Shown one piece after another: positions 1 through 39,030 of a stretch of DNA of 64,000 nucleotides (the first letter of the stretch is position 1; every line of letters starts with the position of its first letter). Source of the stretch: Robiginitalea aestuariiviva (GTDB lineage Bacteria; Bacteroidota; Bacteroidia; Flavobacteriales; Flavobacteriaceae); assembly GCF_029537735.1 (NCBI RefSeq), contig NZ_JARPUQ010000001.1, positions 1,026,696-1,090,695 of the forward strand, given 5' to 3'. Under the pieces are notes generated by a model. It did no database searches. It saw only the letters and a list, made by a program, of their open reading frames with translations, and was not told where the DNA came from. Made by a program: the position numbers and the translations under genes.

Positions 1-540
1 ACCGACCGGACCACCTGCATTATTTTCGGGGATGGTGCCGGCGCCGTCCTGTTCGAGCCTTCCGAGGAAGGCTACGGGCTGAAGGACGAATACCTGCGCT
101 CCGACGGGAAGGGCCGCGAATTCCTGAAGATCGAAGCCGGGGGCAGCCTGATGCCGGCCACGGAAGAAACCGTACGCAACAAGAAACACTTTGTATTCCA
201 GGACGGCAAATCCGTTTTTAAATTTGCCGTGTCGAATATGGCCGATGTAGCCGCAAAGATCATGGAGCGGAACAACCTGAGCCACGACGATGTGGACTGG
301 CTGGTGCCTCACCAGGCGAACAAACGCATCATAGATGCTACCGCCAACCGTATGGGCCTTGAGGCCTCCAAGGTCATGATGAATATCGAAAAGTACGGAA
401 ATACCACTTCCGCCACTTTGCCACTGTTGCTCTTCGATTACGAGAAGCAACTCAAGAAGGGAGACAATCTTGTTTTTGCCGCCTTTGGGGGTGGCTTTAC
501 CTGGGGAGCCATCTATCTCACCTGGGCATACGATTCTTAA
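1..540 (+). CDS. fabH: 3-oxoacyl-ACP synthase III (FabH), C-terminal part
   Basis: Partial gene cut by the left window edge; frame 1 is open from base 1 and codes 179 residues. FabH condenses acetyl-CoA (or a branched starter) with malonyl-ACP to start fatty-acid synthesis in the cytoplasm. Two residues of the Cys-His-Asn triad are visible: His in VPHQAN (codon 310-312) and Asn in [10 protein letters not shown] (codon 400-402). The catalytic Cys lies upstream of the window. The GDGAGA segment near the start and the GGGFTWG segment near the end are typical of the family. It is followed after 27 nt by accB, the usual Bacteroidetes arrangement. An internal ATG at 151 is not a real start because homology extends upstream of it. 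Confidence 0.95.
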
Positions 541-567
541 CGAAAGCAACTAACTAAACCGAGATCC

Positions 568-1059
568 ATGGATATTAAAGAAATTCAGAGCCTGATCAAG
601 TTCGTGGCAAAATCCGGGGCCAGCGAAGTAAAGCTGGAGACGGATGAAATCAAGATTACGATCCGGACAGGTGCCGCGGGCAGGGAAGGAGAGACTACCA
701 TCGTTCAGCACGTGCCCATGGCGCACGGCATGCCGGCCCCGGCCCCTGCGCCCCAGGCCGCCCCGGCCCCGGCCCCCGCTGCCGAAGCTCCGGCCAAGTC
801 GGATGAGAATGACTCCAAGTACATTACCATCAAATCCCCGATCATCGGGACGTTTTACCGCAAACCGGCCCCGGATAAGCCTAACTTTGTAGAGGTTGGG
901 GACAGTATCTCCAAGGGAGACGTGCTTTGTGTGATCGAGGCCATGAAGCTCTTCAACGACATCGAGTCCGAGGTGTCCGGAAAGGTTGTCAAGGTCCTGG
1001 TAGAGGATTCCTCTCCCGTGGAATTCGACCAGCCCCTGTTCCTGATCGACCCTTCATAG
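568..1059 (+). CDS. accB: Biotin carboxyl carrier protein of acetyl-CoA carboxylase
   Basis: Carries biotin between the carboxylase and transferase halves of acetyl-CoA carboxylase, which makes malonyl-CoA. The protein has 163 residues: an N-terminal helical region (1-50), a flexible Ala/Pro linker (about 55-77), and a C-terminal biotinyl domain. The attachment motif EAMKLFND places the biotinylated lysine at about residue 127. Length and order match the family. It sits between fabH and accC in one operon, so starter condensation and malonyl-CoA supply are probably co-transcribed. The Ala/Pro linker gives a GC-rich, low-complexity stretch near 735-795. Confidence 0.96.
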   Translation: MDIKEIQSLIKFVAKSGASEVKLETDEIKITIRTGAAGREGETTIVQHVPMAHGMPAPAPAPQAAPAPAPAAEAPAKSDENDSKYITIKSPIIGTFYRKPAPDKPNFVEVGDSISKGDVLCVIEAMKLFNDIESEVSGKVVKVLVEDSSPVEFDQPLFLIDPS

Positions 1060-1118
1060 GCCTGTTTAGGGCATGCGGCAAGGGAATTGTTTGAAAACCA
1101 ACAGCCAACTCACGCAAC

Positions 1119-2474
1119 ATGTTTAAAAAGATATTGATCGCCAACCGCGGAGAGATCGCCCTGCGTATTATACGCACCTGTAAGGAAATGGGCATCAAAA
1201 CGGTTGCCGTCTATTCCAAAGCCGACGAGGAAAGCCTGCACGTGCGCTTTGCCGACGAGGCCGTTTGCATCGGGCCCGCCCCGAGTAGCGAATCCTACCT
1301 GAAAATCCCCAACATCATTGCTGCGGCAGAGATTACCAATGCCGACGGCATCCACCCCGGTTACGGGTTCCTGTCCGAGAATGCCAAGTTCTCCCGGATT
1401 TGTGCCGAACACGACATCAAGTTCATCGGTGCCACCGGCGACCAGATCGAAAAGATGGGAGACAAGGCCACGGCCAAGGCTACCATGAAGGAAGCCGGAG
1501 TGCCTACCATTCCCGGGTCTGACGGCCTGCTGAAAGACCTGGAGCACGCCCGTAAAACCGCCAAGAAAATGGGATATCCCGTAATGATCAAGGCCACAGC
1601 CGGCGGTGGCGGGAAAGGGATGCGCGCCATCTGGAAGGAAGAAGACCTGGAAAAGAATTTTGAAAGCGCCGTAAAGGAGGCTACCGCAGCTTTCGGCAAC
1701 GGGGGCATGTATATGGAAAAGCTCATCGAGGAGCCCCGCCATATTGAGATTCAGGTGATCGGCGACCAGTTTGGCAAAGCCTGCCACCTTTCGGAGCGGG
1801 ACTGTTCCATACAACGCCGCCACCAGAAACTCACGGAAGAAACCCCTTCCCCTTTTATGACCGACAAACTTCGGGAAGAAATGGGGAAAGCGGCCGTACG
1901 GGCGGCCGAGTACATCAAATACGAGGGCGCGGGTACCGTGGAATTCCTGGTAGACAAACACCGGAACTTCTACTTCATGGAAATGAACACCCGGATTCAG
2001 GTGGAACACCCGATTACCGAGCAGGTGATCGATTACGACCTGATCCGCGAACAGATCCTGGTTGCCGCCGGGGTGCCGATTTCCGGGAAGAACTATACCC
2101 CCAACCTGCATTCTATTGAATGCCGGATCAATGCGGAGGACCCCTATAACGACTTCAGGCCGTCCCCGGGGCGGATCACCACCCTGCATACGCCCGGCGG
2201 GCACGGGGTGCGCCTGGATACCCACGTATATAGCGGCTATACCATCCCGCCCAACTACGACTCCATGATCGCGAAATTGATTACCACCGCCCAGACCCGG
2301 GAGGAGGCGATCAATAAAATGAAGCGGGCCCTGGACGAGTTTGTGATCGAGGGGATTAAAACCACTATTCCCTTCCACAGGCAACTGATGGACCATCCGG
2401 ATTACCTGGCGGGGAATTACACCACCAAATTTATGGAGGGCTTCGTTATGGAGCCTGAAAGAGAAGGGGCTTAA
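1119..2474 (+). CDS. accC: Acetyl-CoA carboxylase, biotin carboxylase subunit
   Basis: ATP-dependent carboxylation of the biotin on AccB, using bicarbonate. The protein has 451 residues, the normal length. The N-terminal biotin-carboxylase fold starts [13 protein letters not shown]; the ATP-grasp glycine-rich loop [13 protein letters not shown] is at about 158-170; the metal and active-site segment [12 protein letters not shown] is at about 287-298. It is the third gene of the fabH-accB-accC cluster, 59 nt after accB. The stop codon lies inside the loop of a terminator hairpin (see 2464-2491), so the operon ends here. The long antisense frame over this gene has no family features. Confidence 0.97.
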
Positions 2475-23884: not shown

Positions 23885-23960
<76 letters not shown>

Positions 23961-33496: not shown

Positions 33497-34105
33497 ATGT
33501 CTTTTCAATTGCCGAATTTACCGTACGCGTATGATGCCCTGGAGCCGCATATCGATGCGCGGACCATGGAAATTCATCATACCAAGCACCATAACGGATA
33601 TACCAACAACCTGAACGCTGCCATTTCAGGCACAGCCATGGAAGGCCAGTCCATTGAAGCCATTCTGGGCGGACTGGATATGGACAATATGGCCGTTCGC
33701 AACAACGGTGGAGGATACTACAACCACTGCCTGTTCTGGGAAATTATGGGTCCCAACGCCGGGGGAGCCCCTACCGGAGAGCTGGCAGACGCCATTAATG
33801 CTGCTTTCGGATCCTTCGATGGCTTCAAAGAGGCTTTCAGTAAGGCTGCTGCCACCCGTTTTGGATCCGGATGGGCCTGGCTTTGTGTACAAAAGGGAGG
33901 AAAGGTTGAAATTTGCTCAACCCCCAACCAGGATAACCCGCTTATGCCTGGCGTAGGTTGTGGCGGGCACCCGATCCTCGGGATTGATGTGTGGGAACAT
34001 GCATATTACCTGAACTATCAGAATCGCCGCACGGATTATATCGGCGCGTTCTACAACGTAATCAACTGGGATAAAGTTGCCGAGAACTACGCGGCCAATA
34101 AATAA
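33497..34105 (+). CDS. sod: Superoxide dismutase (Fe/Mn family)
   Basis: Dismutates superoxide in the cytoplasm. 202 residues. Metal ligands: first His in [11 protein letters not shown], second in [11 protein letters not shown], and Asp/His in [18 protein letters not shown]-terminal fold is complete. Metal choice (Fe, Mn or either) cannot be settled by eye. Own promoter and strong terminator, so monocistronic. Precedes the non-coding array on the opposite strand. Confidence 0.96.
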
Positions 34106-34170: not shown

Positions 34171-34241
34171 GAAAAGGGCAGAGAAACCTCTGCCCTTTTC
34201 ATCCCAAATCTTACCATAAACTTAACCTACTTATGCTATGG
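34171..34241 (-). ncRNA. Putative small RNA, repeat unit 1 of 3
   Basis: Predicted minus-strand transcript of about 71 nt. It begins with a 39-nt core (34241-34203) that starts CCATAGCATAAG, contains three TAAG steps and ends GATTTGGG. A terminator hairpin follows (AAAAGGGCAGAG with CTCTGCCCTTTT, 12 bp, 34172-34199). The core is identical to units 2 and 3 except for one base (T instead of C at core position 24). A full promoter lies just upstream (34247-34277). No open frame is conserved among the copies on either strand. Possibly related to a known flavobacterial ncRNA family such as Rfam Flavo-1, which I cannot check. Confidence 0.7.
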
Positions 34242-34246
34242 CAGGA

Positions 34247-34277
34247 CTAAATTACTGGCTTTAAGAGAAATAACAAA
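34247..34277 (-). promoter_or_regulatory. Promoter of repeat unit 1
   Basis: Minus strand: TTTG (34277-34274), exactly 19 nt, TAATTTAG (34254-34247), then 5 nt to the core. Matches the Bacteroidetes pattern apart from A for T in the -7 box. Confidence 0.65.
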
Positions 34278-34373
34278 GGATTTTACCATTTTTTTGGAAA
34301 AATCCCATAGTTTAAACAAGGTTACAGGAGGAGATAGCTTCGATATCAGCCCTTTAAAGAATAGGGTTAAACA

Positions 34374-34443
34374 TAAAAAGGCAGGGTTCTCACCCTGCCT
34401 TTTCCCCAAATCTTACCATGAACTTAACCTACTTATGCTATGG
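34374..34443 (-). ncRNA. Putative small RNA, repeat unit 2 of 3
   Basis: Same plan as unit 1: 39-nt core (34443-34405), then a hairpin AAAAGGCAGGG/CCCTGCCTTTT (34376-34403, 11 bp plus one closing T-A pair). The stem sequence differs from units 1 and 3 while pairing is preserved. The -7-like box TACTTTGG is 5 nt upstream of the core. Confidence 0.7.
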
Positions 34444-34448
34444 TCCTG

Positions 34449-34456
34449 CCAAAGTA
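34449..34456 (-). promoter_or_regulatory. -7-like box of repeat unit 2
   Basis: Minus-strand TACTTTGG, separated from the core by 5 nt as in the other two units. No recognisable TTTG 19 nt upstream. Confidence 0.5.
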
Positions 34457-34591
34457 AGCCGGATTATTGCCCGGGAAGGATGTTTTTGGACGAACGCCAA
34501 AGAAATCCGATAAACGGTACGCTGGGAGCAGGCATCTTACAGGGGAGGCGTATGCCTTGTCGGGCGGTGAAGGGTGCAGTAGGACGGAAAA

Positions 34592-34662
34592 TAAAAAAGG
34601 TGGAGAAACTCCACCTTTTTTGCCCCAAATCTTACCATGAACTTAACCTACTTATGCTATGG
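34592..34662 (-). ncRNA. Putative small RNA, repeat unit 3 of 3
   Basis: 39-nt core (34662-34624) identical to unit 2, followed by a 13-bp hairpin AAAAAAGGTGGAG/CTCCACCTTTTTT (34593-34621) with a 3-nt loop and six terminal U on the minus strand. The TACTTTAG box is 5 nt upstream of the core. Confidence 0.7.
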
Positions 34663-34667
34663 CAATT

Positions 34668-34675
34668 CTAAAGTA
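34668..34675 (-). promoter_or_regulatory. -7-like box of repeat unit 3
   Basis: Minus-strand TACTTTAG, 5 nt from the core start. The -33 position holds only a weak TCCTG. Confidence 0.5.
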
Positions 34676-34721
34676 CTGGCGTTCCGTCCAGTAGCAGGAT
34701 AAATCCGACAAACAACCCCTT

Positions 34722-34761
34722 TTATCGATGAAATGCATAAAACTGTGCATTTCATCGATAA
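34722..34761 (-). other. Perfect 16-bp inverted repeat just after purF
   Basis: TTATCGATGAAATGCA (34722-34737) and its exact complement (34746-34761), 8-nt loop TAAAACTG, ending 2 nt from the purF stop. No U run follows on the minus strand, so it is not a typical intrinsic terminator; it may be a 3'-end stabilising hairpin or a protein site. Confidence 0.6.
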
Positions 34762-34763
34762 GA

Positions 34764-36665
34764 TCAATAGGCGCGCTCGTTCCGCCCTTCGTAGAAATTC
34801 ACAAAGGAACGGTTTACCACACGGTTCCCTCCTGGTGTTGGGTATTCCCCTGTGAAATACCAATCCCCGAGGTTCTTCGGGCAGGCGGCATGCAAGTTTT
34901 CTATGGTCTGGTAAATGATCTTTACTTCGGCCTTGATCTCTGGCGGACTCAGCAATTCGGCAATCTTATCTGAAATTTCCTCCGGGGTGAAAGGGGCATA
35001 AAACGCCTGCACATGATTGGGTATGGATTCCATACTTTCGGAAACCAAGGAAGCCTTGCATTTTTCATAAATCTCCTGGATAATGGCTTCGGTGCCGTGT
35101 TCCCGATGTAAGGCCAGTGCAGCGCGGAAGGCGATAAAGTCTTCCAGTTTGGCCATGTCTATGCCGTAACAATCCGGATACCGGATTTGCGGGGCAGAAG
35201 AGATCACGATGATTTTTTTCGGATGCAGGCGGTCAAGGATCCGGAGGATGCTCTTGCGCAGGGTGGTTCCGCGTACAATGCTGTCGTCAATAATAGCCAG
35301 GTAATCGCCCGGGTTCACCGACCCGTATGAAATATCGTATACGTGCGCCACCAGGTCGTCCCTGCTGCTGTCCTGGGTAATAAAAGTTCGCAGCTTGGCG
35401 TCCTTGATCGCTACCTTTTCGATCCGCGGGCGTATCTCCAGAATGGCCTGGAGTTCCTCTGGGTCTATCTCCGAACCCATGGCCAGGATCTGCTCCCCTT
35501 TTTTCTTGTTGAGGTAATTCTGGGCTTCCCGCAGCATCCCCAGGAAGGAAGTTTCTGCTGTGTTGGGGATATAGGAGAAGACCGTATTCTTCAAATCGTG
35601 GTCTATGGCCTCCAGGATCTGGGGGAATAATAACATCCCCAGTTTTTTCCGCTCCTCGTAAATCTCCTTGTCGTTGCCCCGGGAGAAATAGATTCGCTCA
35701 AAGGAACAGGCTTTGCGTTCGCGGGGCTCCTGTATTCTTTTAATCTGGGTTTCCCCGGATTTCTTGACAATAATGGCGTGCCCCGGCGGCAACTCTTCCA
35801 CCTGGGCGTAAGAGGTATTGAATACCGTTTGTATAGCAGGGCGTTCCGAGGCGACCACCACGATTTCATCGTCTTTGTAATAATAGGCGGGCCGGATACC
35901 TGATGGATCCCGCAACACAAAGGCGTCCCCGTGGCCGAGTAACCCGGCCATGGCATAGCCCCCATCCCAGTTCTTGGAAGATTTCCGGAGGATTTTCCCC
36001 AGATTCAGGCGCTCCGCAATCAGGGGAGAGGCTTCCATTTTGTTAAAGCCCTCCTTTTTAATTTGTTTATAGAGTTTGGCCACCGCGTCGTCCAGGAAAT
36101 GGCCGATTTTTTCCATAACCGTGATGGTATCGGCAAGTTCCTTGGGGTGCTGGCCCAACTGCACCAGGTTATCGAACAATTCCTTTACGTTGGTCATGTT
36201 GAAGTTCCCGGCCACAATCAGGTTGCGGTGCATCCAGTTGTTCTGCCTCAGGAAGGGATGGACACTTTCTATGCTGTTCTGCCCAAAGGTGCCGTAACGC
36301 ACATGGCCCAAGAGAAGTTCGCCCACATACGGGATGTTTTTCTTCTGCCAGGCCACATCCTCTACCCGTTCCGGGTGTTCCTTCAGGGCGGTGTTCACCC
36401 GTTCGTTGATGCGTTCAAAAATATCCTGAATGGGCTGGGAAAGGTTGGAGCGTACCCGGCTCATGTAGCGCTCCCCTGCGTTCATGTCCAGCTTGATGCT
36501 CGCAAAACCGGCGCCATCCTGCCCCCGGTTGTGCTGTTTCTCCATCATGAGGTACATTTTGTTAACCCCGTAGAAGGCTGTGCCGTATTTCTCCTGGTAG
36601 TATTCCAGGGGTTTCAGCAAACGAATGAGAGAGATTCCGCATTCGTGTTTGATGGCGTCGCTCAT
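34764..36665 (-). CDS. purF: Amidophosphoribosyltransferase (PurF-like, long form)
   Basis: First step of purine synthesis: glutamine plus PRPP gives phosphoribosylamine. 633 residues, against about 470-510 for classical PurF, a long form that I know from Bacteroidetes. The class II glutaminase Cys follows HE in IKHECGISL (residue 9, so a short propeptide is removed), with NRGQDGAGFAS and HVRYGTFG in the glutaminase domain. PRPP motif: YLAIIDDSIVRGTTLRKSI. Extra length is in the glutaminase half and at the C-terminus (about 75 residues). A -7 box lies 5 nt before the ATG. Confidence 0.85.
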   Translation of the reverse strand: MSDAIKHECGISLIRLLKPLEYYQEKYGTAFYGVNKMYLMMEKQHNRGQDGAGFASIKLDMNAGERYMSRVRSNLSQPIQDIFERINERVNTALKEHPERVEDVAWQKKNIPYVGELLLGHVRYGTFGQNSIESVHPFLRQNNWMHRNLIVAGNFNMTNVKELFDNLVQLGQHPKELADTITVMEKIGHFLDDAVAKLYKQIKKEGFNKMEASPLIAERLNLGKILRKSSKNWDGGYAMAGLLGHGDAFVLRDPSGIRPAYYYKDDEIVVVASERPAIQTVFNTSYAQVEELPPGHAIIVKKSGETQIKRIQEPRERKACSFERIYFSRGNDKEIYEERKKLGMLLFPQILEAIDHDLKNTVFSYIPNTAETSFLGMLREAQNYLNKKKGEQILAMGSEIDPEELQAILEIRPRIEKVAIKDAKLRTFITQDSSRDDLVAHVYDISYGSVNPGDYLAIIDDSIVRGTTLRKSILRILDRLHPKKIIVISSAPQIRYPDCYGIDMAKLEDFIAFRAALALHREHGTEAIIQEIYEKCKASLVSESMESIPNHVQAFYAPFTPEEISDKIAELLSPPEIKAEVKIIYQTIENLHAACPKNLGDWYFTGEYPTPGGNRVVNRSFVNFYEGRNERAY

Positions 36666-38949: not shown

Positions 38950-38997
38950 GTACGGCCATGCCTTAATTAGGTGCGGTGGCGTACATTTTATCGGGAA

Positions 38998-39030
38998 TTG
39001 ATGGTTTTAATCCAAAGTTTGTTATTTTTG
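38998..39030 (+). promoter_or_regulatory. Promoter of acpP
   Basis: TTG (38998-39000), 22-nt spacer, TATTTTTG (39023-39030), 29 nt to the ATG at 39060. The -7 box is a strong match; the spacer is slightly long. Confidence 0.6.

Follow-up and report, generated by a model that had tools for sequence, protein, structure and literature searches.

A tandem array of candidate sibling small RNAs between purF and a sodA-like gene in Robiginitalea aestuariiviva and other Flavobacteriaceae

Three candidate small-RNA units between purF and a sodA-like gene

The window analysed here is a stretch of 64,000 nucleotides from the Robiginitalea aestuariiviva genome (contig NZ_JARPUQ010000001.1). Three candidate small-RNA (sRNA) units lie head to tail on its minus strand, between purF, which is their upstream neighbour on the same strand, and a convergent superoxide dismutase gene resembling sodA (Table 1). 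An earlier inspection of the letters alone (hereafter the sequence-only reading) had proposed three independent small-RNA genes of about 70 nt at this place, and the recurrence in relatives, the promoter boxes, the terminators and the synteny described below are in keeping with that proposal.

As it had claimed, the three 39-nt cores differ at a single position, where copy 1 has T and the other two have C, and the DNA around them is unrelated, with the copies parting directly after the core (ATGA, GAAA, and GCAA). Each core is preceded, at 5 nt, by a -7-like box with the consensus TA[AC]TTT[AG]G and followed by a hairpin that consists of a perfect inverted repeat and a T run; both elements had been pointed out and both stand. 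Upstream of copy 1, a TTTG at 34274-34277 is located 19 nt before the -7 box and is a possible -33 box, and no clear -33 TTTG was seen upstream of copy 2 or copy 3.

When the 3.22-Mb genome was searched with the 28-nt core start and up to three mismatches, only these three sites were recovered. The covariance model R1, whose 48 training sequences included the window's own three copies, likewise gave three matches in this genome. Alignment A1 comprised 48 of 54 diverse sequences, since six with odd or long tails were left out. A tRNA gene (23886-23959, minus strand) was the sole feature of the window to reach an Rfam gathering score.

Table 1 Features of the purF-sodA region and related sites (window positions)
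Feature	Position	Strand	Basis
Candidate sRNA copy 1, class A, sodA-proximal, ~71 nt	34171..34241	-	R1 match G000:C1:1060866-1060936 plus terminator; linker GGGATGA
Candidate sRNA copy 2, class B, middle, ~69 nt	34375..34443	-	R1 match G000:C1:1061070-1061138 plus terminator
Candidate sRNA copy 3, class C, purF-proximal, ~70 nt	34593..34662	-	R1 match G000:C1:1061288-1061357 plus terminator
Conserved 39-nt core, copy 1	34203..34241	-	28-nt stem-loop (loop GUAGG) plus linker
Conserved core, copy 2	34405..34443	-	Sequence, fold
Conserved core, copy 3	34624..34662	-	Sequence, fold
-7 box TAATTTAG, copy 1	34247..34254	-	Sequence; position kept in relatives; class A promoter consensus
-7 box TACTTTGG, copy 2	34449..34456	-	Sequence; position kept in relatives
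-7 box TACTTTAG, copy 3	34668..34675	-	Sequence; position kept in relatives
Terminator hairpin, copy 1, 13-bp arms	34171..34200	-	Inverted repeat
Terminator hairpin, copy 2, 12-bp arms	34376..34403	-	Inverted repeat
Terminator hairpin, copy 3, 13-bp arms	34593..34621	-	Inverted repeat
Candidate direct-repeat control site, 20-bp period, upstream of copy 2	34479..34522	-	PWM 21.8 (PWM drawn from a set including own copies); position kept in relatives
Candidate direct-repeat control site, 20-bp period, upstream of copy 3	34697..34740	-	PWM 36.6 (PWM drawn from a set including own copies); position kept in relatives
Palindrome TTATCGATGAAATGCA / TGCATTTCATCGATAA	34722..34761	.	purF-distal arm includes first repeat of copy-3 control site
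purF, upstream neighbour, same strand as sRNAs	34764..36665	-	ORF; conserved adjacency; name by eye from protein sequence
sodA-like superoxide dismutase gene, convergent neighbour	33497..34105	+	ORF; opposite strand in relatives; name by eye
Direct-repeat site like the sRNA sites, upstream of acpP-fabF	38979-39022	+	PWM 22.0

Conservation across the Flavobacteriaceae

The search of Flavobacteriaceae genomes that the sequence-only reading had recommended was productive. With up to three mismatches allowed, the core pattern was found in 28 of 60 genomes (own genome included). Specifically, it occurred in 28 of 37 Flavobacteriaceae, compared with 0 of 23 genomes of the order's other families. When public genome contigs were scanned for an exact 17-mer (core positions 6-22), at least 118 stretches were returned, and those listed came mostly from Flavobacteriaceae genera, with some unclassified Bacteroidetes/Bacteroidota, one Persicobacter MAG and one Clostridium; the Clostridium match (L053) was dropped as chance. 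Because these loci were picked by the exact 17-mer, conservation at core positions 6-22 partly reflects the way they were selected, and the R1 model search is freer in this regard. Across 296 genomes sampled from the order, R1 gave 43 matches: 41 of the 50 Flavobacteriaceae listed matched, including a weak case (G473, 33.4 bits), and the two matches outside the family were also weak (34.1 and 31.9 bits). Among 247 genomes sampled from the phylum, 23 of the 27 Flavobacteriaceae listed matched strongly, and two other matches were seen at 30.9 and 30.0 bits. The order and phylum samples share some genomes, and both were searched with strict filters, which lose weak matches.

The weak match in G473 lies 126 nt behind purF and looks like a degenerate copy. 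Apart from this case, no such unit was seen by eye in the 420 bases behind purF of 22 of 25 genomes (mostly R1-negative), and in the remaining loci of that 25-genome set no R1 score exceeded 21 bits. In one genome without the sRNA (L333), purF is followed by a reading frame that, judged by eye, resembles LytTR. We also note an exact match to TTAACCTACTTATG at G014:C12:152158-152171 (minus strand), outside the core sites listed for that genome, which may represent another copy that has diverged, or else a complementary sequence.

Synteny was counted over the 118 named-contig loci among the matches listed. purF is present in 100 of them, and in 99 of these 100 every copy lies on the purF strand, with the nearest copy starting within 1 kb behind purF (median distance 109 nt, range 68-307); in the exception, L145, the nearest copy is 2.6 kb from purF. 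sodA was found in 90 loci listed and was on the opposite strand in 90/90. The number of copies varies: among the 79 loci listed with both genes, one, two, three, four, five, and six copies were found in 27, 19, 16, 11, 5, and 1 loci, respectively. Seven loci listed have neither purF nor sodA in the stretch, including the Clostridium match and L080, which is without the wider core pattern. Some genomes carry extra copies at sites where neither purF nor sodA lies within the stretch examined. In Salegentibacter flavus (L045), an integrase-like reading frame (~345-1563, minus strand; recognised by eye) adjoins a dispersed sRNA copy.

To describe the anatomy of the units we used 283 distinct instances from relatives and our own genome, leaving out those near a contig end. 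At the fixed site upstream of the core, 231/283 instances agreed with TAnnTTTG in five or all six of its fixed letters, compared with 2/283 shuffled upstreams. The distance between the end of the best TAnnTTTG-like box and the core was exactly 5 nt in 233/283, a number for which ties between candidate boxes were resolved toward the 5-nt distance, so that 231/283 is the unbiased count. A hairpin with at least 4 T followed the core in 275/283 instances, and the unit length was 68-72 nt in 263 of the 275 with a terminator. Since box and terminator recur across the 283 instances, a chance origin can be excluded. The base directly before the first C of the core is a purine in 277/283. Because the sigma-A box TAnnTTTG of Flavobacterium lies at -12 to -5, according to PMC9723704, the RNA probably starts on this purine rather than on the C itself. 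The linker reads GGTAAGATTTGGG in 183/283 instances, GGTAGATTTGGG in 96/283 and neither in 4/283; a difference of 1 nt shifts any reading frame, and therefore no peptide frame is shared, in agreement with what had been stated for the three copies.

All three window RNAs fold computationally into a 5' stem-loop and a terminator. In the computed fold, the core forms an imperfect stem-loop of ~28 nt presenting GUAGG, followed by the linker GGUA(A)GAUUUGGG. Variants of the stem-loop were collected from 131 model matches in 56 chosen loci, some sites being counted twice since the loci overlap; one match (L084) fell outside the parsing rule and the other 130 gave 27 distinct stem-loop sequences. GUAGG was unpaired in the loop in 27/27 folded variants, and the linker was GGUAGAUUUGGG or GGUAAGAUUUGGG in 127/130. 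Besides the two major forms, all of the 25 variants had at least 7 enclosing pairs, compared with 60% of edit-matched random mutants (mean 9.6 pairs vs. 6.3), and 0/200 simulated mutant sets reached the observed mean pairs or energy. This simulation takes related variants as independent and therefore overstates the strength of fold conservation, the direction of which is clear. Pair statistics on the first alignment were weak; in it, columns 5/23 change on both sides, from A-U to G-C, in two sequences. Greater differences, length included, were seen in the Flavobacterium-type copies that the model recovered, which also show changes inside core positions 6-22.

Upstream sites and target searches

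The regions upstream of the copies fall into classes A, B, C, and a CATAAC type. Class A (linker GGGAYGA) was the last, sodA-side copy in 48/48 instances, and its promoter is conserved across genera (roughly TTTnTTATTTnnCacAATACCAGTAnTTTAG). The other classes carry two direct repeats of approximately GCRTTTYATC, 20 bp apart and near -70. With up to two mismatches, repeats at -73 to -69 were found in 81/92 class B, 38/39 class C and 90/106 CATAAC-type upstreams, compared with 3/48 of class A. Exact repeats at the same position occurred in 51/92 (B), 22/39 (C), 21/106 (CATAAC-type), and 0/48 (A), and in 0/1840, 0/780, 0/2120, and 1/960 of the respective shuffles, which preserve base composition only. 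The motif was read off the same upstreams on which it was counted, and the shuffles therefore test its presence rather than a prediction made independently. The sodA-side copy of CATAAC-type loci can bear the repeats as well. In class C, as in our window, a palindrome includes the first repeat, and arms like those of the window palindrome were noted by eye upstream of many class C copies.

According to PMC4847170, the sites bound by LytTR regulators consist of two 9-11-nt repeats with a spacing of 11-13 nt, and YpdB binds a direct repeat of GGCATTTCAT. The 20-bp period found here fits the lower edge of the LytTR format (9 + 11) as given there; this likeness to sites of LytTR response regulators is suggestive only. 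Our own genome has seven LytTR genes, whose loci (~23 kb) contain six one-mismatch matches to the motif and no exact one, about twice the rate in an 800-kb sample (100 matches). A PWM scan of our own sequence gave 18 hits above 9 compared with 11 in the reversed sequence, and 11 compared with 3 above 12; none of the 18 hits above 9 fell in the seven LytTR loci. The site upstream of acpP-fabF (Table 1) resembles those of the sRNAs. Among the acpP loci of relatives, 12/36 have a site scoring at least 16, and the other 24 score at most 8.4. These acpP sites might indicate that the regulon is broader in some members of the family.

Antisense searches, with totals counted by hand from the match tables, did not provide a convincing target, and their non-self matches were in total below those of the reversed-pattern controls. 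Specifically, an antisense 14-mer with one mismatch gave ~32 non-self matches in 31 genomes (reversed control, 64), and an 18-mer with three mismatches gave 23 in 10 genomes of the genus (reversed control, 32); by genome, this 18-mer had 7 matches vs. 1 for the control in G003 and 4 vs. 3 in G007. A second 18-mer, CTTAACCTACTTATGCTA, had 2 non-self near-matches in the 10 genus genomes compared with 41 for the reversed control, a depletion that may be an effect of composition.

We also computed duplex energies over 864 kb of our own genome with 695 predicted starts. Relative to gene interiors, the core fitted start regions better than did 40/40 shuffles (start-minus-internal difference of 0.61, compared with 1.49 to 2.84 for the 40 shuffled cores), and CCATGAA was present in 47/695 start regions vs. 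8/529 internal regions. Pairing in a fixed register was evaluated at 619 ATG starts, covering a quarter of the genome. With GU pairs allowed, 250 and 126 of the 619 had matches reaching 7 and 8 nt, respectively, compared with maxima of 233 and 125 in 30 simulations, and one 13-nt GU-allowed match was found in the third register (simulated maximum, 0 in 30). Since the main register had no excess of long matches in this test, the results suggest that the fit of the core to start regions is mostly ordinary start context.

Interpretation and comparison with known systems

We consider it rather probable that the three units belong to a multicopy ("sibling") family of trans-acting sRNAs of Flavobacteriaceae. 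The family is apparently undescribed, as neither the RNA nor the core string was found described in the text of the open-licence articles searched. The stem-loop and the upstream control site are new beyond the sequence-only reading. According to our proposal, each sibling would be transcribed alone; the active part would be common to all of them, and promoter and terminator would vary from one to the next. The repeat-bearing copies would be switched on by a DNA-binding activator, plausibly a response regulator of the LytTR type, and the class A copy (here copy 1, next to sodA) would respond to its separate conserved promoter. The common loop and linker would act on common targets via short base pairing. 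With separate promoters and a common loop and linker, a single output dose would integrate several inputs, in analogy to the Vibrio Qrr sRNAs.

A more specific version of this proposal, which we offer as tentative and rather doubtful as a whole, is a Qrr-like hub that operates family-wide. A LytTR-type two-component system (nutrient- or signal-sensing) would drive the repeat-bearing siblings through a site that is like the YpdB box and that some members of the family also have upstream of acpP-fabF, a separate conserved promoter would drive the sodA-proximal one, and the GUAGG stem-loop delivered by all of them would act on a common regulon without an RRM protein. To our knowledge, small-RNA control in Flavobacteriaceae seems little studied. 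A compact array next to this pair of genes in the majority of loci examined, together with a recognisable control site, would give Flavobacteriaceae a model sRNA regulon, and it would test how sRNAs work in a genome without a detectable RRM_1 protein.

Titration of a protein is a serious rival to base pairing by siblings, although we judge it unlikely on balance. By a logic like that of CsrB or 6S, the GUAGG stem-loop and G-rich linker would be a recognition site and the copy number would set the dose. This would be consistent with the preserved fold, the invariant loop and the near-invariant linker, as well as with antisense searches that gave no convincing target, but each RNA offers one site rather than many, and there is no candidate protein: RRM_1 (PF00076), the domain of Bacteroides RbpB, had 0 matches in our own genome at E<=0.001. 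It is very improbable that the units, instead of being independent genes, act in cis as part of the region 3' of purF or in convergent termination between purF and sodA. Their near-fixed site behind purF and the duplex energy of the core with the purF start (z -2.9) would suit such a role, though among the neighbouring genes other than purF (range -2.3 to 0.2) Kbl (-2.3) and PfkB (-2.2) are also low; moreover, the copies have their own promoter box, most have an upstream site, loci hold 1-6 intact units, and some genomes have copies away from purF. Several near-identical copies, one of them dispersed and near an integrase-like frame, might suggest a REP-like or mobile repeat. This reading is already disfavoured, and we give it hardly any credence, considering the constant synteny, the unrelated flanks, the preserved promoter and terminator, the lack of a further copy in our own genome and of any match to the exact core pattern AGTAGGTTAAGTTYATGGTA in viral contigs. 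Least credible of all is a small peptide gene, for which an ATG inside the core could be cited, but the frame is shifted by the 1-nt linker indel between lineages and enters the terminator.

The RNAs might also be a distant branch of the FopS/GibS sRNAs of Bacteroides, blocking translation starts of susC-like mRNAs, a descent that we regard as very unlikely, too. Both groups are multicopy with a short 5' part and a terminator, and they have the short string UUCAUGGUA..AGAUUU in common; the local alignment score with FopS was equalled by only 19 and 24 of 3000 shuffles, and in L154, a genome from a different family of the order, R1 run with filters off reached 17.0 bits (E 0.021) where FopS has a sub-gathering match. 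However, copy 3 received 18.9 and 17.2 bits from the FopS model (RF04319), whose gathering score is 56, and in our own genome this model had no match at E<=0.1 with strict filters. The likeness vanishes with the Flavobacterium-type core, for which 1731 and 1644 of 3000 shuffles equalled the alignment score, and true FopS copies (L152, L153) scored just 6.9 and 8.5 bits with R1. In addition, the 5' stretch of FopS is unstructured, according to PMC11697453, in contrast to the stem-loop here, and RRM_1 is absent at the threshold given above. Homology with FopS/GibS was thus rejected, since the short common string is not robust. Several sub-gathering FopS matches (L154, L156, L160) resemble translation-start regions (ATGAAAAAC) on one strand, which is expected if FopS carries an anti-start sequence.

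Returning to the sibling sRNA family that we favour, an Rfam scan of the three RNAs found no family at gathering score. Matches to sraA, HrrF, STnc40, asX2, and other Rfam names were sub-gathering, with alignments that mostly pair the terminator hairpins, and were set aside. Flavo-1 (RF01705), which the sequence-only reading had named as a candidate family, also occurs in Flavobacteriaceae, but its model has no match on these RNAs; it is outside the Rfam matches of the region at E<=10 and this assignment was rejected. A Flavo-1 RNA of 75.9 bits was found beyond sodA in a Flavobacterium-type relative (L307, 3493-3577, minus strand), not on the sRNAs. Rfp18 of Flavobacterium psychrophilum is likewise a conserved sRNA of that genus, and it pairs via a region called its third stem-loop (PMC9723704); the RNAs here have two computed stem-loops and, going by this description, would differ from Rfp18.

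The nearest known RNAs in kind are the FopS sRNAs of Bacteroidaceae, from which ours differ in model score, structure and the presence of RRM_1. According to PMC11697453, FopS is multicopy, with a common 5' part, a terminator and sigma-A-type promoters. Its copies are spread genome-wide on several contigs, whereas those here are in tandem. The FopS 5' seed is single-stranded, as opposed to the computed 5' stem-loop here, and FopS is tied to the RRM protein RbpB (PMC11697453), in contrast to our own genome with no RRM_1 match.

Judged from its predicted parts, the array is of the multicopy-sibling kind, with several copies, each with its own promoter and terminator, around a common active part. 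LhrC sRNAs of Listeria are multicopy siblings as well, in another phylum. The Qrr sRNAs of Vibrio are several siblings with a near-identical active part and are driven by a response regulator. Our candidates resemble them in being siblings with a near-identical active part, and the activator proposed here from the repeat site would correspond to that regulator. Dependence on Hfq and sigma-54 is a feature of Qrr. The likeness is one of logic rather than of sequence comparison: sibling sRNAs that would convey several inputs through one common active part.
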